10,422 bases of DNA from Beijerinckiaceae bacterium (lineage in GTDB: Bacteria > Pseudomonadota > Alphaproteobacteria > Rhizobiales > Beijerinckiaceae), in contig DAIESR010000285.1 of the NCBI GenBank assembly GCA_027346205.1, positions 1-10,422 of the forward strand, in the 5' to 3' direction. Position 1 is the stretch's first letter. Each line of letters opens with the position of its first letter. Position numbers and translations under genes: made by a program. The notes below the pieces were generated by a model. That model was not told where the DNA came from, did not search any database, and saw only the letters and a program-made list of their open reading frames with translations. Shown in pieces: positions 380 to 10,422 of this stretch.

Positions 380-2980
380 TCAAAATCCAACGCCGAGCGC
401 GGTGGAGGCACCACCACCGCTACCGCTACCTCCACCACCTCCGCCCCCATGAGAGCGTGAATGGCCCCCGCGTGCGACATCACGAGCGTGGGGCGGTGTT
501 TCCCGTTTGCGCGCTGGCTTGTCATCAGCACGACGATGTTCGCGCGCATGATGGGGCGGCCGCGACTCGCGATGCGCGCGAACTCGGGGCGTCTCTTCCT
601 CGTGGGCGATCGCACCCGGGACACAATGGTCTTCTTTGGCAATCTGGCCGTTTGGACAGACGAGTGGGCACACGCGTGACTTTTGCTGCTTAAGCGTACC
701 GATGAAATCAGCGTTGATCTTCGGCTCCATCTTGGCTTCTTTCGCATCACCGCGGTGCTCGAAATATTGCGTCCAGGCGGCACGTGTGGAGGGCCCAAGC
801 AAGCCGTCCAGCGAACCCGCGTAGCATCCCAGACGCTTCAGCTCGCCTTGCGCCGTGCGGATCTGCACGGGCGAATTGACAGCTGCGCTTGCAGCCTTGT
901 CGAGCTCTTCGAGCGCAGCTTGGACCGTCGGACGCAGCGTCTCGCATGTGAGCTTGTCCTCAAAAGTCGCGAGTTCGACACGCCCGTCGGCACCCTTCTT
1001 CTGCAAGGCGGCGAACTGCTGACCTTCTTGACTGCAGGCTGCTGCTTGCTGCGCCTTCTTTCGATCGAGTGCAGCGATGCGCGCCGTGGCGGCCGATTTG
1101 ACCTCTGCGCAGGTCGTCTTGCCGAGCATGTCTTCGAGCGCTGATCTGTTGTCCGGGGCTACCAAGTCGAGGGATGCTTCATCCTGGCTGCAGGCAGTCG
1201 CTATGGCGGAGAGCTTCTTATCGATCTTGGCAAGGACCGCCGGACATTCGATTTGGCCGCGCAGAGCCTGAAGATCCTTGCGCCCGCTATTGGCGGCGAG
1301 GCCTTTGAACAAATCCTCGTCGCGCCGGCAAGCCGCCGCCTCTTTCGCGTGCACGGCTTCGAGTTTCGTAAGCCGCGCCTGCGCCGTCTCCTTGACATTA
1401 TTGCAAGAGGTCCGATTCAAGAGAGCACGCAGGCTGTCGCCGTCGTTCGGGCCGATAGCGGCCAAGGCCGCATTGTCGCGTGCACAAGCGGCATCGGCGA
1501 CAGCTAGCTCGCGGATGACTTGCCAGGCGGCGGCGATCGTAGCCGGACATTGAGCCTTCTTGCGAAAGGCGTCGATATCGGCGCGTGTGCCGGTCTTGGC
1601 CAAGCCTTGTAGTGTGCTGTTCTCGCTTTGACAGATCTGCGCCTGGCGGGCCCGATCTGCGGCGATCGCGGCGATCTTGTCACGCGCCGCATCCCGCACT
1701 GTGGCGCATGTCGTCTTTGCCATCAGATCGCGGGCTCCAGCCTCGTCCTGCGGCCCCAGCGCTTCGAGCGCTGCGCTGTCGCGGCGGCAGGCTCTGGCCT
1801 CTTGCAGGAGCTGAGCGCGCAGCGCCGCGAGACGCGCTTGTGCCGCTGCTTTGACCTTATCGCAAGGCTTGCTGTCGATGAGAGCCTGTAGCGCATCGGC
1901 ATCACGCGGGCCGACTGCTTCGAGCTTCGCCTGATCTTCTTTGCAGGCTTTCGCCGCTTCGGCTGCCGCCGCGAGCGCGCGCTTTTCGGCCGCGCGCAAG
2001 ACGTCCTGTTTGTGCTGATCGAGCGCACGTTCGAGAGCATCGAGCCGATAGCGCGCCTCGATGCCATAATATGAAGATGGGAAGCGCTTGAGAAAATTCT
2101 CGAAGGAGGCAGGATCGTCGGAATCTTTAATCTTGTTCCAGGCGAAGCGATCGCTCTGGTTAAGCACATAGTCGCTGACGAGCGAGACATAAGTCTCCGG
2201 CCGCTGCTGCCCATGCGTCGCGGCGACCACATCGGCGGCGACGCGGCGGAACAGGGTCTCGATTTCGAGGCCGGGCTGGGCGAGACGACGCAGGAATGCC
2301 GCGGTGAAGGGGCTGTTGCGACCCTGTCCGTCCAGCGCGACGTCGCCCGGCGACGCGGCATAGGCGATGATCAGCCCTTCGCTCTTGTCGATGCGGCCGA
2401 TGCCACGCGTCCGCGATGTGGGTTCGGGGATATCTTCTTGCGGCGCGGGCAGCTTGACCAGGCGCGCCGATACTGGATTGTTGCGGCAGGCATCGAGGAC
2501 CATGATCTTGATGCCATGCGTCCGGTCGAGCGCGGCGCGGACATCGTCGACGCGTACAGTCTCATATTGCAGGCCGATGTCGTCCTTAACCTCAGCATCG
2601 GTCGGCAGCAGATAGTTTTGCCCCTGATACTGCACGGCATGGCCGGCATAATAAAACAATGACGTATCCGCATTCGCCGACATCCGGGCGAATTGCTGCA
2701 AGGCCTTGCCGAAATCGCTGAAATTGGAATCGGTTTCGACGAGCACCTCGAAGCCAAGTTTGCGCAGAGCCGTAGCCACGTCTTCCGCGTCATTCTTGGG
2801 ATTGGTCAGCTTAAGATCGGCGGTGCGATAGTTCGAATTGCCGATGACGAGTGCGACGCGGCGCTCGGCGGTGGCGCCGTTCGCAGTCACGACGAGGGCA
2901 ATCAGGCTCCACGCCAGTAAAGCCACGAGACGGAGCAGTCTGGCTACCGAAGCGGGCATTAATGCCGAAGCGCTGTGCAT
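380..2980 (-). CDS. Exported caspase-family (peptidase C14) protein with seven Cys-pair repeats and a peptidoglycan-binding-like module
   Basis: Predicted 866-residue exported protein. Residues 1-38 look like a signal peptide (Arg-containing n-region, Leu/Ala/Val core, Ala-rich end before AERRVALVIGNSNY). A C14 caspase fold follows at about 39-270, with catalytic His114 (YYAGHAVQ) and Cys165 (VLDACRNNP) and the usual ASPGDVALDGQGRNSPFT block. A linker (about 281-315) with a SFENFLKRFP motif precedes seven helical units of about 50 residues, each with two cysteines 27-30 apart (about 346-690). A peptidoglycan_binding_1-like module follows (about 706-741, LKRLGCYAGSLDGLLGPSTR), then a Cys-rich turn and a basic, His-rich and Gly-rich tail. 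Family knowledge suggests a periplasmic or envelope cysteine peptidase cleaving after Arg or Lys; the substrate is unknown. ATG 2980 was chosen because an upstream TTG at 3067 would bury the signal peptide and overlaps a possible -35 box. ATG 2959 is also plausible. No strong Shine-Dalgarno sequence is seen at any of these starts. The gene is transcribed divergently from the T6SS operon. Confidence 0.87.
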   Translation of the reverse strand: MHSASALMPASVARLLRLVALLAWSLIALVVTANGATAERRVALVIGNSNYRTADLKLTNPKNDAEDVATALRKLGFEVLVETDSNFSDFGKALQQFARMSANADTSLFYYAGHAVQYQGQNYLLPTDAEVKDDIGLQYETVRVDDVRAALDRTHGIKIMVLDACRNNPVSARLVKLPAPQEDIPEPTSRTRGIGRIDKSEGLIIAYAASPGDVALDGQGRNSPFTAAFLRRLAQPGLEIETLFRRVAADVVAATHGQQRPETYVSLVSDYVLNQSDRFAWNKIKDSDDPASFENFLKRFPSSYYGIEARYRLDALERALDQHKQDVLRAAEKRALAAAAEAAKACKEDQAKLEAVGPRDADALQALIDSKPCDKVKAAAQARLAALRAQLLQEARACRRDSAALEALGPQDEAGARDLMAKTTCATVRDAARDKIAAIAADRARQAQICQSENSTLQGLAKTGTRADIDAFRKKAQCPATIAAAWQVIRELAVADAACARDNAALAAIGPNDGDSLRALLNRTSCNNVKETAQARLTKLEAVHAKEAAACRRDEDLFKGLAANSGRKDLQALRGQIECPAVLAKIDKKLSAIATACSQDEASLDLVAPDNRSALEDMLGKTTCAEVKSAATARIAALDRKKAQQAAACSQEGQQFAALQKKGADGRVELATFEDKLTCETLRPTVQAALEELDKAASAAVNSPVQIRTAQGELKRLGCYAGSLDGLLGPSTRAAWTQYFEHRGDAKEAKMEPKINADFIGTLKQQKSRVCPLVCPNGQIAKEDHCVPGAIAHEEETPRVRAHRESRPPHHAREHRRADDKPARKRETPPHARDVARGGHSRSHGGGGGGGSGSGGGASTALGVGF
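893..1945 (-). other. Region coding seven tandem Cys-pair helical repeats within the caspase protein
   Basis: The cysteine pairs are at residues 346/373, 398/425, 450/478, 499/526, 551/579, 597/624 and 649/679 of the 866-residue form. The first cysteines are 46-52 residues apart. A typical unit reads C-(R/K/S)-x-(D/E)-x-x-x-(L/F)-x-x-(L/V)-x, a turn, an acidic/Leu helix, a second C, then V/L-x-x-A-A and a charged Ala-rich helix. Because the protein appears exported, each pair could form a disulfide that pins a helical hairpin, giving a rigid rod between the caspase and peptidoglycan-binding parts. The repeats have diverged at DNA level, so this is an old protein repeat and not a recent DNA duplication. 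Confidence 0.8.
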
Positions 2981-3038
2981 TTTGATAGGCTCATAAGCGG
3001 CGAGCAGGCGCCGCGCCCAGCGAAATTTCTCACAATGC

Positions 3039-3067
3039 AGGATAGAGGCTGCGCGGCGAAGAAGCAA
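3039..3067 (-). promoter_or_regulatory. Candidate sigma-70-type promoter for the caspase gene
   Basis: Reading leftward, TTGCTT (3067-3062) and TATCCT (3044-3039) are separated by exactly 17 bases. The matches to the -35 and -10 consensus are partial. Transcription would begin near 3032, leaving a leader of about 50 bases before the ATG at 2980. That would place the alternative TTG start at 3067 outside the transcript. In GC-rich DNA such matches arise by chance, so this is only a candidate. Confidence 0.3.
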
Positions 3068-3342: not shown

Positions 3343-3840
3343 ATGGCACTTGTTTTGACAATTGAGAAAAGCGGCCATGCGTCCGGCGGCGCCCAAAACC
3401 GTATCCGCCTGGAACCCGGCGAAGCGCTCGACATCGGCCGCGGCGCGGATGTCGATTGGACATTGCCCGATCCGGCCCGGATCATTTCAACCAAACATTG
3501 CGAGATAAGGTTTCGCGGTGGCAAATATTGGCTTTATGATGTTTCGAGAAACGGAACCTTCATTAACCATGACATGCGGCGGCAGCGGGCGGCGCATCCG
3601 CTGAGCCACGGGGATCGGTTCACGATGGGCGGTTATGTTATCGCGGTCACGGTTGAAAACGACGATTTCGAACGGACGGAAATGCTCCTCGCCGAGCTGC
3701 CAGCGGGGCGAGGTCCGAGCTGCGGCTCCACTCACGGACACAGTCAAAAGGAGCCGGCTGATAATTCCGGATTGAGAATGGCGCAGGACAAGACGGCCGG
3801 AAGCGTGCGGTGCAGAGCGGCGTTGTGCAGAGTGGCGTAG
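3343..3840 (+). CDS. Short stand-alone FHA-domain protein, T6SS-associated
   Basis: 165 residues, predicted cytoplasmic. An FHA phosphothreonine-binding domain fills about residues 3-105. It has the family's conserved contacts: Gly-Arg at 32-33 (DIGRGA), Ser49 and His52 (STKHCE), and Asn70-Gly71 with Asn75 (RNGTFIN). About 60 of the first 105 residues match the next gene product, so the two arose by duplication. Unlike its neighbour it lacks the long linker and the C-terminal TagH domain. After residue 110 there is only an unstructured tail ending in CRAALCRVA, partly encoded by a DNA tandem repeat. It is the first gene of the T6SS operon and lies 14 bases before the second FHA gene. Likely role: a phospho-reader that binds a phosphorylated T6SS component, or that competes with or modulates the full-length Fha. 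It could instead be the remnant of a once longer Fha protein, but its intact FHA residues and strong ribosome site argue that it is expressed. Confidence 0.87.
   Translation: MALVLTIEKSGHASGGAQNRIRLEPGEALDIGRGADVDWTLPDPARIISTKHCEIRFRGGKYWLYDVSRNGTFINHDMRRQRAAHPLSHGDRFTMGGYVIAVTVENDDFERTEMLLAELPAGRGPSCGSTHGHSQKEPADNSGLRMAQDKTAGSVRCRAALCRVA
3810..3839 (+). repeat. 15-bp imperfect tandem repeat at the FHA-FHA gene junction
   Basis: The units at 3810-3824 (GTGCAGAGCGGCGTT) and 3825-3839 (GTGCAGAGTGGCGTA) differ at two bases. The unit length is a multiple of three, so the repeat is read in frame as the last residues of the short FHA protein (CRAAL then CRVA), and its final bases form the TAG stop. 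It lies directly upstream of the ribosome site of the next gene. Confidence 0.7.
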
Positions 3841-3854: not shown

Positions 3855-5363
3855 ATGGCGCTGATCTTGACCATCGAAAACGAGACGAGCCTCCCCAATG
3901 GGGCGCCAGTGAGCATGCGGCTGACGGACAAACGGAATTTGGACATCGGCCGCGGCGCGCATCTCGATTGGCCGCTTCCTGATCCGACACGCTTCATCTC
4001 CGGCAAACATTGCGAGGTGAGATATCGGGACGACGGCTATTGGCTCTATGACGTCTCGACGAATGGGACATTCCTGAACGATAGCCCGCGTCGGCTGCAG
4101 GCGCCTTATCGTCTCTGCAATGGCGACCGTTTGATCATCGGGTCTTATGTCATCCTGGTCACGGTCGAAGGCGAAGAGGACAAGGGTGGTGTGCCGGCTA
4201 TTGGATCGTCGGGATTGCCGTCGCACTCTCCCGCCACCGGAACGCCTGCTTCTTCCATTCCTTTTTCGCCGCCCTCTTTCACGCCTGCTTTTTCTCGGGC
4301 TACGGCGCCGGTCGAGGCGGCGCCGCCTCAAGCGCAGGATCATGTCGGCGGCGTCGCTGCTGAGGCCGCTCGGAGCGAGGCGAAGCCGCATTACGAAGAT
4401 GTTGAAAGCGGCGAGGCGCGCGATATAGAAGAGGGTGCGGCTTTTAGTGTCGAGCAAGATGCGGCGGTCCCGGTCGGGCATGACGGCTTTGTTGCGGCCG
4501 ACGAAGCGCACGGGCAGGAGCCGGTTTCGGCCGTGCAAGGACCTGAACATGAGCGCGCGCCTGCGTCCGAGAGAGTCGCCGTCGATGCACCAGCTCTGCC
4601 AGCGACCAGGGATATGCCGCAGCCAGGAGCCGACTACGCCCCAGCTGGAGCATCCGCACCGCAGCATGACGCGCCCGCCGCCGATGTTGCGCCGCATGTC
4701 AATGTCGTCAAATTTCCTGGGTCGGGCGGTGGTGCTCAAGCGCCTGGGGCCGCGCCGGAAGCCGCCCCATCAAAGACTGATTATGATGAATTCATTCGCC
4801 GGTTCGCGGCAGGCGCCGGAATTCCAGAGCATGTTTTCGCGCGGCGCGATCAGCTCGAGGTGGCGGAAGAACTCGGACAATTGACGCGGCTCGTCGCTGA
4901 AAATTTGAAGCAGCTGCTGAGCGCGCGTTATGAAGCCAAGCGCTTCACCCGTGCGGCCAGCCAGACGATGATCCAGGCGCTCGACAATAATCCCTTGAAA
5001 TTCGCCCCGACGACAGAAGACGCACTGCGGATCATGCTCGGGCCGCGCACCCGCAGCTATCTCGATGCGCGGCGCAGTTTCGAAGGCGCATTCGACGATT
5101 TGAAGACGCATCAGATCAAGACGTTTTCAGCCATGCAAGGCGCGGTGAAAATGCTGGTCGAGGACTTCGATCCACAGCAGATCGACGCTGCCGCTGGCCC
5201 CAGCAGTGGGATCGGCGCTTGGCTCACGAGCCGCAAGGCCCGGCTTTGGGATCTGTTCGTTGCTCGTTGGCAGGCGAAGTCCTTGCGCCACAAGGATGGT
5301 CTCGTCGATGCCTTCATGCTGTATTTTTCCGAATGCTATGATCGCGCAAGTGACAAATCCTGA
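3855..5363 (+). CDS. tagH: T6SS FHA-domain protein (TagH/Fha type)
   Basis: 502 residues, cytoplasmic, with no membrane segment. The N-terminal FHA domain (about 3-105) has the conserved contacts Gly-Arg 32-33, Ser49 and His52 (SGKHCE), and Asn70-Gly71 with Asn75 (TNGTFLN). A Pro/Ala/Glu-rich, probably disordered linker of about 200 residues follows (about 107-308). The C-terminal domain (about 310-500) is the conserved T6SS FHA-protein region, with the signature NNPLKF at 378-383 followed by PTTEDALRIML and a helical end (FMLYFSECYDRA). Proteins of this kind act in threonine-phosphorylation control of T6SS assembly. In Pseudomonas aeruginosa, Fha1 works with kinase PpkA and phosphatase PppA; in Agrobacterium, Fha binds phosphorylated TssL. 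It is followed after 83 bases by tssL, its likely partner. No PpkA or PppA gene is in this window. The FHA half is duplicated in the preceding gene. The symbol follows the family name used for FHA-type T6SS proteins; fha is an equivalent choice. Confidence 0.92.
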   Translation: MALILTIENETSLPNGAPVSMRLTDKRNLDIGRGAHLDWPLPDPTRFISGKHCEVRYRDDGYWLYDVSTNGTFLNDSPRRLQAPYRLCNGDRLIIGSYVILVTVEGEEDKGGVPAIGSSGLPSHSPATGTPASSIPFSPPSFTPAFSRATAPVEAAPPQAQDHVGGVAAEAARSEAKPHYEDVESGEARDIEEGAAFSVEQDAAVPVGHDGFVAADEAHGQEPVSAVQGPEHERAPASERVAVDAPALPATRDMPQPGADYAPAGASAPQHDAPAADVAPHVNVVKFPGSGGGAQAPGAAPEAAPSKTDYDEFIRRFAAGAGIPEHVFARRDQLEVAEELGQLTRLVAENLKQLLSARYEAKRFTRAASQTMIQALDNNPLKFAPTTEDALRIMLGPRTRSYLDARRSFEGAFDDLKTHQIKTFSAMQGAVKMLVEDFDPQQIDAAAGPSSGIGAWLTSRKARLWDLFVARWQAKSLRHKDGLVDAFMLYFSECYDRASDKS

Positions 5364-5446
5364 GGCGTGTTCGTCACTCGCCGCCGCTTTTCGTTCGATG
5401 CCGATGTGACACCCTTGGCCAGGGCACGCTAATTCCGGGCTAGCCG

Positions 5447-7075
5447 ATGACCGATAAGAACAAAACGCCGGGTTCCGAAGATCGTGTGGATCACACGGTC
5501 TTTCGGCCTGCGCCAGGGGGACGTCCTAAGCCGGAGTCGGCAGAGCTGAAACCGGCGCCCGCTGATCAAACGCCTGCTGATCAAATGCCGCAGGCCAGCG
5601 TGCCCGAGGAACGCACGATCTTCCAGCCTCTCGGTCGAAGCCGTCCGGTGCCGAGAGCGCCGGCCAACCCGCCGCCGGCCGCTCCGTCCGGAAACGAGGC
5701 GGCGGATGGTAAGGCCGCGCCGGCCCGCGTCATGCCGGCTGCGAGCGAGTCCGCGGATCATACGATGATTCGGCCCAATCCGGGTGGCCGGCGGGCACCA
5801 CCGCCGCGCGGTTCGGTCGACCGGATGCCGCAAATGCCGAGCCCGGAGGTACCGCGCCGAGCGACGGTCGAAGAGGTAGAGATCGGCGTCATGAATGCCG
5901 ATCCGATCATGCGGGCAGCGGGACCGCTGCTTCTGCTGCTCGGGCGTCTGCGCGCATCTCTGTCACGGGCCCAGGCGCCGAGTCTCGTTCCACAGATCGT
6001 CGAGGCGGTGCAGAAATTTGAAGCCGAATGTCACGCGGCGGGCGTTGTCACGGAAGCGACTAAAAAAGCGAAATATATTCTCTGCGCGACGGCCGATGAA
6101 GTGATCGCCAATCTGCCGGGTGGCGATCGCATCGCCACCCAAGCGAGCGTGACCAGCCGGTTTTTTGGCGAAAGCTCCAACGTCGAACGTTTTTTCGAGG
6201 AACCCGCGGCCCTCAGCGCCGATCCCAACGCCCTTTATCCGATCCTCCAGTTGCAACATGCTTGTCTGGCGCTTGGCTTCGCGGGCTATTCGCGGACGCT
6301 TGCCGGCGACGCCACGGCGCTGCCGCGGATGCAGCATGAGATTTACGAAAAGATCGCGCGGGCACGGCCGCGCGGCTTCCTGCGCTTGTCGCCACACTGG
6401 AAGGGTCAGGCGATGCCGGCGCAAGCGGTCCGGCTGCGGATTCCGTTCTGGGCCGTCGCTGGCATTGTCGGACTCGGGCTCTTCATTCTTTACCTGACTT
6501 TGCGGAGCCTGCTTGCACTGCAGGCCGAGCAGGTTGCCGCGACAATGGCCTCCTTCAATCCGGCAAAGCCGATCGAGATCAGACGGCAGTCCGCCGTGCC
6601 GCCGCCGCAGGCCGCGCCGCCGACGCGGGCGCAAAGCGCGCAACTCGCGCGCATCCGCAAGATCCTCGGGCCGAACATAACCGACGGCACCCTGGCGGTG
6701 GTTGCGACCGCCAATCAGATCATCATTCGCATTCCCAGCCATTTCGTGTTTCAGCGCGACAAAGCGGCGGTGCTCGCGGGCTTTCGGCCGCTTGCCCTTT
6801 ATATCGCCTTGGCGCTCGACGGCGAGAAGGGCTCGATCAAAGTGCTGGTTCACACCGACAATCGAACGGCCGGCAATGATCGCTATGGTTCCAATTTCGA
6901 ATTGTCTTCCGATCGCGCTCGGGCGGTTGGCGCTGTTCTCAAGCAATTGCTCGCGCAGCCCGAACGGGTCGACGCCGAAGGCAAGGGCAGCGATGTTCCG
7001 ATCGCCTCGAATGCCACGCCGCAAGGACGCGCCGAGAACCGCCGGGTCGAGGTCGTCATTGGCCGCAGCGACTGA
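5447..7075 (+). CDS. tssL: TssL, DotU-family T6SS membrane protein with C-terminal OmpA/MotB-like domain
   Basis: 542 residues, an inner-membrane component of the T6SS membrane complex with TssM. The first 140 or so residues are Pro/Ala-rich, disordered and cytoplasmic, and carry three T-[VIM]-[FI] motifs at Thr17, Thr57 and Thr106. The DotU/TssL domain spans about 150-320, with family landmarks YILCATADEVI (210-220), FFGESSNVERFFEE (239-252) and FLRLSPHWKG (311-320). A transmembrane segment at about 333-353 sends the rest to the periplasm. A short Pro/Gln linker leads to an OmpA/MotB-like peptidoglycan-binding domain (about 415-540), with Asp471 in the VHTDN block, LSSDRA with Arg490, and NRRVEVVIG at the end; Asp471 and Arg490 correspond to the diaminopimelate-binding pair. 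This is the extended form of TssL, longer than the minimal DotU-only form. An in-frame TAG at 5441-5443, two codons upstream, makes ATG 5447 the earliest possible start. The Shine-Dalgarno sequence is poor. The gene follows tagH and precedes tssM by 29 bases. Confidence 0.95.
   Translation: MTDKNKTPGSEDRVDHTVFRPAPGGRPKPESAELKPAPADQTPADQMPQASVPEERTIFQPLGRSRPVPRAPANPPPAAPSGNEAADGKAAPARVMPAASESADHTMIRPNPGGRRAPPPRGSVDRMPQMPSPEVPRRATVEEVEIGVMNADPIMRAAGPLLLLLGRLRASLSRAQAPSLVPQIVEAVQKFEAECHAAGVVTEATKKAKYILCATADEVIANLPGGDRIATQASVTSRFFGESSNVERFFEEPAALSADPNALYPILQLQHACLALGFAGYSRTLAGDATALPRMQHEIYEKIARARPRGFLRLSPHWKGQAMPAQAVRLRIPFWAVAGIVGLGLFILYLTLRSLLALQAEQVAATMASFNPAKPIEIRRQSAVPPPQAAPPTRAQSAQLARIRKILGPNITDGTLAVVATANQIIIRIPSHFVFQRDKAAVLAGFRPLALYIALALDGEKGSIKVLVHTDNRTAGNDRYGSNFELSSDRARAVGAVLKQLLAQPERVDAEGKGSDVPIASNATPQGRAENRRVEVVIGRSD
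5486..5800 (+). other. Three phosphothreonine-candidate motifs in the TssL N-terminus
   Basis: The sequence encodes three spaced copies of a short motif: VDHTVFRPAPGGR (Thr17), EERTIFQPLGRSR (Thr57) and ADHTMIRPNPGGR (Thr106). Each has an acidic residue at -2, a basic residue (His or Arg) at -1, V/I/M then F/I at +1/+2, R/Q-P at +3/+4, and a downstream Gly/Arg turn. The segments between them are low-complexity and differ in length, so the conserved cores stand out. Given adjacent FHA genes and the known Fha-phospho-TssL interaction in Agrobacterium, they are strong candidates for kinase sites and FHA docking sites. Phosphorylation itself is inferred. Confidence 0.65.
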
Positions 7076-7104
7076 GCAATAAGAATGATGAAACGGCATC
7101 CGGA

Positions 7105-10100
7105 ATGAAAGTCGACAGGCTCAGCGCATTGCTTGAAAATCTCCTCGCTCGGATGCCGGTCCGATATCGCGCGGCATCGGCGCAGCTCGTCATCAGCGGG
7201 CTCGGCTGTGCCGCGCTGGCGGGTCTGATCTGGTATGGCGGCCCCCTTCTCGGCTTCGGCGATTTTCATCCGTTCGAGGATGCGGCGCCGCGGCTCGTCG
7301 CGATTCTTCTGCTCGTCGGCATTGTCGCTGGCTTCGTTGCGATTCATCAAAGAATACGCCGCGCCAGCGTCGATCGGCTCGCTGCCGGGCTTGGCGTCCA
7401 GGACAGCGATGCGCCGGTGCTTACCGAGCGCATGCACGAGGCGCTCTCCATGTTGCGTGGCCTATCTGGAGGCCGCGCGAATTACCTTTATGATCTTCCC
7501 TGGTATGTGCTGATCGGGCCTCCGGGCTCCGGCAAGACGACGGCGCTTGTCAATTCCGGCCTGCATTTCCCGCTGGTACGCGGCATGGCGCCGGGTGCCA
7601 TCGCTGGTGTCGGCGGCACCCGCTATTGCGACTGGTGGTTCACCGAGGACGCCGTCCTCATCGACACCGCCGGCCGCTATACGACGCAGGATTCGGACAG
7701 CAAAGCCGACCAGAAGAGCTGGTTCGCCTTTCTCGATCTCCTTAAGCGCAATCGGCCGCGCCAGCCGATCAATGGGGTGCTGATCGCGATCAGTCTTGAG
7801 GATCTGCTGACTCTCACACCGGATGAACTCACCGCGCATGTGGAAGCGATCAGATCCCGGCTCATCGAACTGCAGCAAAGGCTCAAGGTCGATCTCCCGG
7901 TCTACGCCCTTTTCACCAAGGCCGATCTCGTTATCGGTTTCATGGAATATTTCAACGATCTCGACGAAACGGGCCGGGCACAAGTCTGGGGCACGACCTT
8001 TCGGACCAAGGACAAGAAGCGCAATTGTGTCGACCGGATTCCGGCCGAATTCACAGCATTGATCGAGCGTTTGAATCTTGCGCTGCCGCTGAAGCTCGAG
8101 GTGGAGAAAGATCCGACCAATCGGGTTTTGCTGTTTGGCTTTCCGGCGCAGATGGCGGCGCTGCGCAATATGGTCGGCGATTTTCTGGGACGGATCTTCG
8201 ATCCTGCGCAACATCGGGTGAATGCCGCCCTGCGGGGTTTTTATTTCACCTCGGGCACGCAGCAGGGTACGCCGATCGATCAATTGCTCGGGGCGCTCGC
8301 GAAGGGTTTTGGCGCGGAAGGTGTGGCCGGGCCGGTCTATTCCGGCCAAGGCAAGAGCTTCTTCCTGACCGATCTGGTCAAGAAGGTGATCATTGGCGAG
8401 GCCGGCTGGGTCTCGAACCATAAATTCAGCCGTCTTGCCGCCGTCGCGAGCTTCGCCTTCATTTTCGTTCTCACACCGATCGTCGCCGGCAGCTGGTGGG
8501 TCAGCTTCACCCACGCCGGTGATGTGATCCAGGAGAACAAGGACGCTGCGGCGCGCTATCGCAAGCTGGTCGGCAATCTCGCCGCGACGCAGACCGTGGA
8601 TGACCGCGACCTTGCCAAGATCTTACCGGCGCTCGATGCGCTTCGCCTGCTGCCGAATGGCTATGCAAGTCGCGGCGCGGACGCCGCCACCCAATCCGAT
8701 GCGATGGGGCTGAGCCAGACGGCGCGATTGCGCTCGGCGGCGGAGACTGCCTATCATGTCGGCCTCGAGCGCCTTATGCGACCGCGCCTGATCTTTCGCC
8801 TCGAGGAACAGCTCGAGGACCATATCAACGATCCGGAATTTCTGTTCAATGGCCTCAAAGTCTATCTGATGCTCGGCGGCTTAAAGACCGTCGACCGGCA
8901 GCTCGTCATCAGCTGGATGGAACATGATTGGGCGCAGAATCTTTATCCGGGACCGAAAAATGCGGCGGGCCGCAAGGATCTCGAACAGCATTTGATCGCC
9001 ATGCTCGATCTCGATACGGGGGGGCAGCGGCTGACCTCGCTCGACGGACCACTGGTCAAGAAATGTCAGGCGACCTTGGCCCGCGTCGATCTCGCGCGCC
9101 ATGCGTTCGACCTGCTCGTCACCAAGGCCAAGGCTGATTTGGGCGAAGAATGGGTTGCGGCCCATCACGCTGGCGAGGGCGGGCTCGTCGTGTTCGACGA
9201 TACGCTCAAAACGGTCCGCGTCCCTTATTTCTATACGCGCGCCGGCTTCGAGCATGCCTTTCTCGGGCGCCTCGACATGGTCGTCAAAGACATGGCGCGC
9301 GACCGATGGGTTCTCGGCTCGGCCGGTAAATCGGATGCGGCTACGATCCAATATAAGAAACTGCCGGAGCGTCTCGCCGAGCTCTATAGTGCCGGTTTCG
9401 TCGCCGCATGGCAGACGGCGATCGACAAATTGAAGATGCGGCCACTTCTTACCGATCGGCCGGTCTATCCGCTTCTCAATGCCGCCGGGCTGATGACATC
9501 GCCTCTCGCGCGCCTGCTCGAATCGATCAAGGAAGAAACCGATCTCAGGAATTTGCCGCAAGCGCGGACGCAACCGGATAGTGTCGCGCGCGCGGCGACG
9601 TCGATCGCAACGGCGCTCTCACCCTATTACGCGTTGGTCGAGGGGAATCGGGGGCGGCGGCCGATCGATACGATCATTTCGGACTTGAGCGATCTTCGTA
9701 CGAATTTGACTCGTTTTGCTACCGCGGAACGACAGAACGACGTCATGAATCGGAGGCTCGCGGGCGCGACCGAGCGGTTGAGGGGTGACGCCGCCAAATT
9801 GCCAGAGCCTTTCGCGAATCTGCTCGGCGCGGTCGCGTCCGATGCGCGGCGTGAAATGTCTCGAGCTGTGGTGGCTCAGGCCGCCGAGACGCTGCGCGAT
9901 CAGATCACGCTGACCTGTCAGGCGACGATCGCCGGCCGCTTCCCCTTTGCACCCGGCGCGCCGCGCGAAGTGGCGCTCGCGGATTTCATCCATATGTTCG
10001 CGCCGCATGGCTTGATCGACAATTTCGTCAAACAATATGTGCTCGCCTCCATCGACGTCGTGGGCAATACATGGACTTGGCGTCCGGGTACGCCGCTCGC

Positions 10101-10422
10101 CCATCAGCTTCCTTCGAAGGCGCTCGCGGAGTTTCAGCGTGCCGCGAAAATTCGCGATGCGTTTTTTGATGCCGACAGCACCCGTCTGGGCTTTTCGTTG
10201 ACCGTGGTGCCGCCTTCGACCTCGAGCGTACGGCTGGATGTCGATAACACGATCATTGACGGCCGCAACGGTCCGTCGACACTGCAATGGCCGGGCAGCG
10301 GCGCGATGCATCGCGCTGCCATTGTCTTCGAAACATCCAATCGTGCGGCCAGCTCGATCGAGAAAACCGGGGCTTGGGCGTTCTATCGGTTGCTCGAAGC
10401 GGGTCACTTGACGAATGAGGGC
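7105..10422 (+). CDS. tssM: TssM, IcmF-family T6SS inner-membrane protein (3' end cut by window edge)
   Basis: The frame is open without a stop from ATG 7105 to the last base, giving 1106 residues; the C-terminus is missing. Two transmembrane helices (about 28-50 and 62-82) flank a short periplasmic loop. A cytoplasmic NTPase-like domain follows, with Walker A GPPGSGKT at 138-145 and a switch-like DTAGR at 187-191. The IcmF-related block runs to RGFYFTSGTQQGTP, a third transmembrane helix lies at about 444-468, and the long periplasmic part reaches the family's late FPFAPGAPREVALADF region. TssM bridges the inner membrane and the outer-membrane lipoprotein TssJ, and binds TssL. Both nucleotide-binding motifs look intact, which is not true of every TssM. 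From family length I expect most of the protein to be present here. It is the last visible gene of the operon, 29 bases after tssL. No clear Shine-Dalgarno sequence precedes the ATG; the two ATGs at 7085 and 7088 are in another frame. Confidence 0.96.
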   Translation, partial: MKVDRLSALLENLLARMPVRYRAASAQLVISGLGCAALAGLIWYGGPLLGFGDFHPFEDAAPRLVAILLLVGIVAGFVAIHQRIRRASVDRLAAGLGVQDSDAPVLTERMHEALSMLRGLSGGRANYLYDLPWYVLIGPPGSGKTTALVNSGLHFPLVRGMAPGAIAGVGGTRYCDWWFTEDAVLIDTAGRYTTQDSDSKADQKSWFAFLDLLKRNRPRQPINGVLIAISLEDLLTLTPDELTAHVEAIRSRLIELQQRLKVDLPVYALFTKADLVIGFMEYFNDLDETGRAQVWGTTFRTKDKKRNCVDRIPAEFTALIERLNLALPLKLEVEKDPTNRVLLFGFPAQMAALRNMVGDFLGRIFDPAQHRVNAALRGFYFTSGTQQGTPIDQLLGALAKGFGAEGVAGPVYSGQGKSFFLTDLVKKVIIGEAGWVSNHKFSRLAAVASFAFIFVLTPIVAGSWWVSFTHAGDVIQENKDAAARYRKLVGNLAATQTVDDRDLAKILPALDALRLLPNGYASRGADAATQSDAMGLSQTARLRSAAETAYHVGLERLMRPRLIFRLEEQLEDHINDPEFLFNGLKVYLMLGGLKTVDRQLVISWMEHDWAQNLYPGPKNAAGRKDLEQHLIAMLDLDTGGQRLTSLDGPLVKKCQATLARVDLARHAFDLLVTKAKADLGEEWVAAHHAGEGGLVVFDDTLKTVRVPYFYTRAGFEHAFLGRLDMVVKDMARDRWVLGSAGKSDAATIQYKKLPERLAELYSAGFVAAWQTAIDKLKMRPLLTDRPVYPLLNAAGLMTSPLARLLESIKEETDLRNLPQARTQPDSVARAATSIATALSPYYALVEGNRGRRPIDTIISDLSDLRTNLTRFATAERQNDVMNRRLAGATERLRGDAAKLPEPFANLLGAVASDARREMSRAVVAQAAETLRDQITLTCQATIAGRFPFAPGAPREVALADFIHMFAPHGLIDNFVKQYVLASIDVVGNTWTWRPGTPLAHQLPSKALAEFQRAAKIRDAFFDADSTRLGFSLTVVPPSTSSVRLDVDNTIIDGRNGPSTLQWPGSGAMHRAAIVFETSNRAASSIEKTGAWAFYRLLEAGHLTNEG

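Follow-up and report, generated by a model that had tools for sequence, protein, structure and literature searches.

The best-described counterpart of the locus analysed here is the PpkA–TssL–Fha switch of Agrobacterium tumefaciens, in which phosphorylated Thr14 of TssL, within the context DLPpTVVEI, is reported to be bound by Fha (Lin 2014, PMC3953482). In that account, Agrobacterium and Rhizobium share the T14 region whereas distant TssL proteins do not, TssL is nevertheless suggested as a wider target, and R30 and S46 of Fha were mutated (PMC3953482). TssL has also been named as a PpkA substrate in Vibrio alginolyticus, and overproduced PppA is reported to have left TssL phosphorylation in A. 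tumefaciens unchanged (PMC5995506). In P. aeruginosa, S. marcescens, and Acidovorax citrulli, the reported substrate is Fha (PMC5995506, PMC12607579). PpkA and Fha of A. citrulli are described as forming condensates that recruit T6SS parts (PMC12607579), and Fha has other reported partners as well, including PpkA and TagF (PMC5995506, PMC12607579).

The DNA analysed here, referred to as the window, is a whole contig (C391) of 10,422 bases from a draft genome of 2.7 Mb, 579 contigs, and 87% completeness. A caspase-domain gene on the minus strand is followed by four plus-strand genes encoding an FHA-only protein, TagH, TssL, and TssM. TssL (5447..7075, plus strand) is a protein of 542 aa with a DotU domain at residues 153–353, an OmpA domain at 463–532, and a Pro/Ala-rich cytosolic tail formed by residues 1–152. 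It belongs to the DotU family of T6SS TssL proteins, with scores above the cut-offs of both PF09850 (148 bits; cut-off 27) and TIGR03349 (146.5; cut-off 89.95). The PF00691 score was also above its cut-off (35.6; cut-off 27.2), whereas the long-form model TIGR03350 was matched below its own (120.8; cut-off 139.8); the OmpA domain is therefore present, and the protein is not filed as TIGR03350. The tail consists of 83% P/A/G/S/R/E/D/Q/N/K/T and 16% I/L/V/F/W/Y/M/C, a composition from which disorder is predicted. TssM (7105..10422, plus strand; TIGR03348, 947 bits) is cut by the contig end. Ten further genomes from the genus of the window (60–100% complete) were searched for DotU and none had a match, indicating that the T6SS locus was either acquired or mis-binned. 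The host organism of the locus is accordingly uncertain; the locus-level reading is unaffected.

The window resembles the A. tumefaciens switch in having a threonine close to the N-terminus of TssL (T17, against T14 in A. tumefaciens), a TagH/Fha protein with an FHA domain, and a kinase together with TagF/phosphatase in the cluster. It differs in that A. tumefaciens has one DLPTVVEI site, whereas the window has a partial site besides two full ones of the RP type, plus an FHA-only protein; phosphorylation and binding are reported as demonstrated in A. tumefaciens and are putative in the window.

A preliminary description of this DNA had placed three similar threonine cores at T17, T57, and T106 of the TssL tail, and these positions were confirmed, all of them scoring far above shuffled tails. 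Site 1 (5489..5524, plus strand; DHTVFRPAPGGR) contains the core DHTVFRP, with the T17 codon at 5495; site 2 (5609..5629, plus strand) consists of the core ERTIFQP, with the T57 codon at 5615; and site 3 (5756..5791, plus strand; DHTMIRPNPGGR) contains the core DHTMIRP, with the T106 codon at 5762. Relative to the consensus motif [DE]RT[VI][IF]RPNPGGR, the tail holds two full matches and one core-only match: copies 1 and 3 carry the full T..RPxPGGR, and copy 2 retains the core alone. For quantification, a 14-position profile was derived from 100 single-core tails, with the window and seven other multi-core loci excluded, and its null distribution consisted of the highest score from each of 8,150 shuffled tails (163 × 50), giving a 99% level of 5.6 and a 99.9% level of 11.3. 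Sites 1, 2, and 3 scored 26.5, 13.3, and 24.6, respectively, and a score at least equal to that of T57 was reached by 0.06% of shuffled tails, the training set being the same tails that were sampled for comparison. The strict core pattern, which was picked after the sites had been seen, occurs three times in the window tail; in 100,000 shuffles of that tail it was absent from 99,926 and occurred once in 74. Chance therefore does not account for the three sites. Elsewhere, the profile gave 9.3 for the kinase discussed below and 6.2 for TssM, both above the 99% level for tails, and at L220, L222, L212, L213, and L216 the only ORFs of at least 100 aa that scored 11.3 or more were the TssLs. The DNA of the three copies is identical at 22–26 of 42 positions, indicating that the copies are old and did not arise by recent slippage.

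The TssL tails of relatives provide the baseline for these sites. After start and score filters and retention of one tail per ORF, 169 DotU domain lines yielded 163 tails from 162 loci; 138 relative regions had been chosen, with near-duplicates in large genera skipped, and the window and loci from the related-locus search are counted among the 163 as well (L288 and L289 were added later and lie outside the 163). A T-phi-phi-x-P core was absent from 54 tails, present once in 100, twice in 8, and three times in one, the window; the second core of one two-core tail, L099 (TAAAP), is spurious. Counted with the profile, the motif was absent from 42 tails and occurred once in 110, twice in 10, and three times in one. 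The commonest state is thus a single DRTVIRPNPGGRR-like motif near the N-terminus. Single-copy tails such as those of Bradyrhizobium jicamae (L084) and Methylobacterium brachiatum (L085) carry the same motif near the N-terminus, in one copy and with no FHA-only gene found adjoining TagH, whereas the window combines three cores with an FHA-only gene. Among tails from named records, which were picked for likeness to the window TssL, 15 of 24 exceeded the profile threshold, including Bradyrhizobium, Methylobacterium, Acetobacteraceae, Rhodocyclaceae, Thiodiazotropha, and Pseudomonas (as a T-Q-F variant); Pantoea, Burkholderia, Azoarcus, Comamonadaceae, and Rhodobacteraceae were among the nine that fell below it. 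In an alignment of chosen sequences, T17 and P21 were invariant in 17 of 17 TssLs. DRTVIRP, DRTIIRP, DRTVFRP, and NPGGRR had no occurrence in the literature text searched.

This baseline replaces the one used in the preliminary description, which had regarded the window sites as a multiplication of the A. tumefaciens phosphothreonine site. That baseline was not supported: the LPTVVEI context was not found at the window sites, whose contexts are DHTVFRP, ERTIFQP, and DHTMIRP, so that the window is not filed as the A. tumefaciens site multiplied, and the proper comparison is with the single-copy DRTVIRPNPGGRR of relatives. Multiplication itself stands in a restated form, in which the relatives' motif is present twice in full and once in part. 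We infer that the DRTVIRPNPGGRR-type motif would be the functional counterpart of T14.

Several other tails hold two to four T-[VI] cores. The f24 tails (L235, L241–L243) contain DKTVIRAPR plus ESTVFDPG or EATVFDPG, the f18 tails (L168, L175) contain three to four DDPTV-like cores, and L090, a Rhodobacteraceae contig, contains several T-[VI] cores; one pattern among these multi-core tails is KTVFGQPL, present twice. TssL tail sites thus seem to have been multiplied more than once, apparently independently.

When 46 chosen TssLs were placed in a tree with their tails removed, the window formed a single group with two genomes of genus g149 and seven of genus g174 (SH-aLRT 100), and a TssM+TssL+TagH tree of 17 loci recovered the same grouping (100/100). 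The tails of this clade mostly carry two or three cores. In both g149 genomes the tail reads DDRTVFRPNP (or SP), DDNTVFRSPP, and DDRTVFRPNPGGRR, that is, three cores with the middle one altered. The g174 members of the window's type number nine: five have two cores (L212, L213, L215, L218, and L288), three have two cores plus a third, T-V-V, under a loose pattern (L216, L217, and L289), and L219 has a single weak core left. The last core of g149 (DDRTVFRPNPGGRR) and that of g174, L219 excepted, are similar to window site 3, and the first threonine is residue 17 in nine of ten clade members and residue 18 in the tenth (by the nearest start of one pattern). Conservation in close homologues, on which the preliminary description had let its proposal depend, was thus observed for the equivalents of T17 and T106 in most of the clade.

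These patterns speak to the unlikely alternative that only one site matters, the remaining copies having survived neutrally from an old duplication while the tail evolved fast, and the FHA-only gene being an unrelated paralogue. The degeneration of copy 2 in the window, its alteration in g149, and the single weak core of L219 would fit such a history. The first and last copies, however, are retained by most members of the clade, which spans three genera, despite linkers that differ in sequence and length, and within the g149 pair the cores DDRTVFRP, DDNTVFRSP, and DDRTVFRP are identical while the linkers gain gaps (tail dS 0.58); one residue directly after the first core differs. The dN/dS of the whole g149 tail is 0.12, the core sites being too few to set the cores apart from the tail as a whole. 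In L220, copy 1 (GDDRTVFRPNPAPR) and copy 3 (HDDRTVFRPNPGGR) have almost the same local sequence. Five g174 genomes (G538, G524, G461, G429, and G507) hold a multi-core TssL and a second, single-motif TssL, indicating that multiplication is a trait of a T6SS subtype and not of a genome.

With up to three candidates scored per genome, no TssL outside the family matched that of L222 as closely as the g174 TssLs do (E 1e-123 or lower), either in 385 class genomes (next best 5e-71) or in 394 order genomes (next best 7e-105). A plasmid search (89 records, 20 of them among the matches listed) likewise gave no TssL that near, all being under 60% identity. The related-locus search by TssL alone found no relatives, and that by TssL alignment (two peptide patterns) kept 80 loci, among which none was recognised from the clade and many were OmpA-domain matches only. 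The divergent caspase-domain gene that adjoins the FHA genes (380..3067, minus strand; Peptidase_C14, PF00656, 134 bits) encodes a hydrophobic N-terminal segment and is a common neighbour in the window's T6SS clade, with homologues of 62–68% identity over 243–254 aa at L220, L222, L213, L288, L216, L289, L212, L218, and L215 and no match at the clade loci L217 and L219. A literature search on caspases and T6SS showed no such Peptidase_C14 neighbour in titles among the matches listed.

A kinase gene, for which the preliminary description had proposed to look beyond the window, was found on contig C88 (L064), one of two kinase genes returned by a PF00069 search of the MAG. C88 carries a TssM C-terminus at its end, followed by TagF, PP2C, and the kinase, and matches window positions 10244–10414 at 97.7% over 171 nt. 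Given this overlap and the TssM end, C88 most likely lies next downstream of the window and comes from a near-identical strain binned with it; the degree of identity also suggests that the bin mixes strains. The cluster thus includes, via C88, a Ser/Thr kinase, as in the A. tumefaciens switch. The second kinase (C167) is fused to a Usp domain and was set aside by judgement. In both g149 loci (L220 and L222), TagH, TssL, TagF, PP2C, and the kinase lie in that order on one piece. Kinase, phosphatase, TagF, and FHA protein are also the set of the PpkA–Fha systems of P. aeruginosa, S. marcescens, and Acidovorax citrulli; in the available portions of the reports on those systems the substrate site is on Fha and no TssL tail array is mentioned, whereas in the window the array is on the TssL tail.

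For the association between kinase and motif, 139 loci were counted, comprising those of at least 19.9 kb and the window. A kinase or PP2C lay in the stretch at 108 of 122 loci with an RP- or DDPTV-type motif, versus 6 of 14 without (Fisher p 0.0002, an optimistic value since the loci are related by descent); three in-between loci, two of them with a kinase or PP2C, were omitted, and L225, counted as having no motif, has its tail cut by the contig end. An FHA ORF was in view at 102 of 122 loci with a motif and at 10 of 14 without, and this similar frequency argues against a simple one-to-one link between motif and FHA protein, although the other reported partners of Fha, such as PpkA and TagF, soften the argument.

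These counts cut both ways for an unlikely alternative, namely that TssK, TssM, or some other T6SS component docks constitutively on the motif without phosphorylation, with the threonine serving for packing and additional copies adding docking strength. Such docking is favoured by FHA ORFs not tracking the motif, by the 14 motif loci at which neither kinase nor PP2C lies in the stretch (the window among them, as its contig stops before these genes), and by conservation that runs past the threonine to P21, P23, and the GGR run, which is more than FHA domains usually need. The association of the motif with a nearby kinase or phosphatase argues against it, as does the retention in other clades of a T-[VI] core whose flanks differ (DDPTV, LPTVVEL).

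The presence of two FHA genes, as first described, was borne out by domain profiles. TagH/Fha (3855..5363, plus strand) contains FHA and T6SS_FHA_C (PF20232) and scored 268 bits against TIGR03354 (cut-off 120.25), placing it in the TagH family. The second gene (3343..3840, plus strand) encodes an FHA-only protein of 165 aa (PF00498, 62.6 bits) without T6SS_FHA_C; its TIGR03354 score of 101 is under the cut-off and covers positions 1–114 of the 420 in the profile, so it is not filed as TagH. It is a paralogue of the TagH FHA domain, with 55.6% identity over 108 aa. Its residues R33, S49, and H52 fall within columns invariant in 13 of 13 aligned FHA sequences, and the TagH equivalents are kept too; the columns were equated with R30/S46 of A. 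tumefaciens Fha by domain pattern, not alignment. Both window FHA domains thus retain the usual pThr-pocket residues. The FHA-only proteins of L220 and L222 have a DKT[VI]CS stretch in the C-terminal tail, a possible self-binding phospho-site; the core pattern was not found in the FHA-only protein of the window.

Across the 163 tails, the fetched stretch held at least one FHA ORF in 125 cases, two in 8, and none in 38. An FHA-only gene adjoining TagH occurred at three of the 163, namely the window and both g149 loci (L220 and L222), and all three have three cores. The eight g174 loci with TagH in view have two or three cores and no FHA-only gene, and L219 has no FHA ORF in view; L216, L217, and L289 have three loose cores yet one FHA gene, so three cores do not go strictly with the FHA-only gene. 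A correlation between motif number and FHA gene number, raised in the preliminary description, therefore survives only as this partial link, in which three cores accompany an extra FHA gene in the window and g149. General tracking was rejected over the 163 tails: six of the eight two-core tails, the spurious L099 among them, show one FHA ORF. Other loci with two FHA proteins did not qualify as FHA-only cases. At L070, L191, and L067 the second is a C-terminal-FHA protein a few kilobases from TssL, which we take by eye to be cyclase-like; L182 has a short distant one; and L084 of Bradyrhizobium jicamae has two TagH genes in tandem (5221–8310), each with FHA and T6SS_FHA_C.

The FHA-only domains group with the FHA domains of the window clade (100/100), and this nesting within their own clade makes them look like a local duplicate. 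Topology tests gave p-AU 0.425 for the three FHA-only genes as one clade and 0.464 for the window and g149 as sisters. The gene may have been gained once, or gained before the split and lost in g174, and its association with three cores may accordingly be a single event. In g149, dN/dS is 0.17 for the FHA domain of the FHA-only protein versus 0.02 for that of TagH, indicating purifying selection on a gene that is kept but freer. The gene is very unlikely to be what remains of a duplicated TagH in decay, a view that would suit its missing C-terminal domain and the long branch of the window copy (1.02 and 1.74) but not its open frame, the same truncated layout in the window and both g149 genomes, the pocket residues kept in the window copy, or the g149 dN/dS.

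On balance, we lean towards a reading in which threonine phosphorylation turns on three places in the tail where an FHA domain can dock, with TagH as the recruited protein and the FHA-only protein in a tuning role. The window would then appear to be an elaborated form of a known on-switch, as opposed to a system of a new kind. The C88 kinase, encoded downstream of TssM, would act on T17 and T106, and probably on T57. The FHA domain of TagH would bind the phospho-sites and bring the TagH C-terminal domain to the TssL–TssM membrane complex, where assembly would start; two or three sites per TssL would offer more local binding places and thereby make recruitment faster and more avid. Having no TagH C-terminal domain, the FHA-only protein most likely tunes the switch, and could do so by reading the same sites and competing for or capping them. 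We infer phosphorylation, binding, cooperativity, avidity, and FHA-only tuning alike from the genes and motifs. Reversal by the neighbouring PP2C is doubtful in view of the PppA result in A. tumefaciens. The preliminary description had also raised different FHA proteins reading different sites; the near-identity of copies 1 and 3 in g149 speaks against their being distinguished by separate FHA domains. If labour is divided between the FHA readers, the divergent middle site would be the candidate, as the likeliest private target of the FHA-only protein. In a condensate setting such as that of A. citrulli, more sites per TssL could matter. A bolder and rather improbable extension is a T6SS subtype in which TssL would serve as a multi-site phospho-platform, TagH would start assembly, the FHA-only protein would compete or buffer, and firing would need more than one phosphorylation per TssL, which amounts to a threshold in place of a one-site switch.

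Taken together, the analysis provides a sequence definition for a candidate TssL-tail phospho-site well beyond Agrobacterium and Rhizobium, one that reaches several proteobacterial groups in a sample biased towards relatives of the window TssL. The FHA-only cases bear on what an FHA protein does when it lacks the C-terminal domain of TagH. Natural one-, two-, and three-site tails, some of them in one genome, bring within reach the question of a one-site switch versus an avidity threshold in T6SS start-up.
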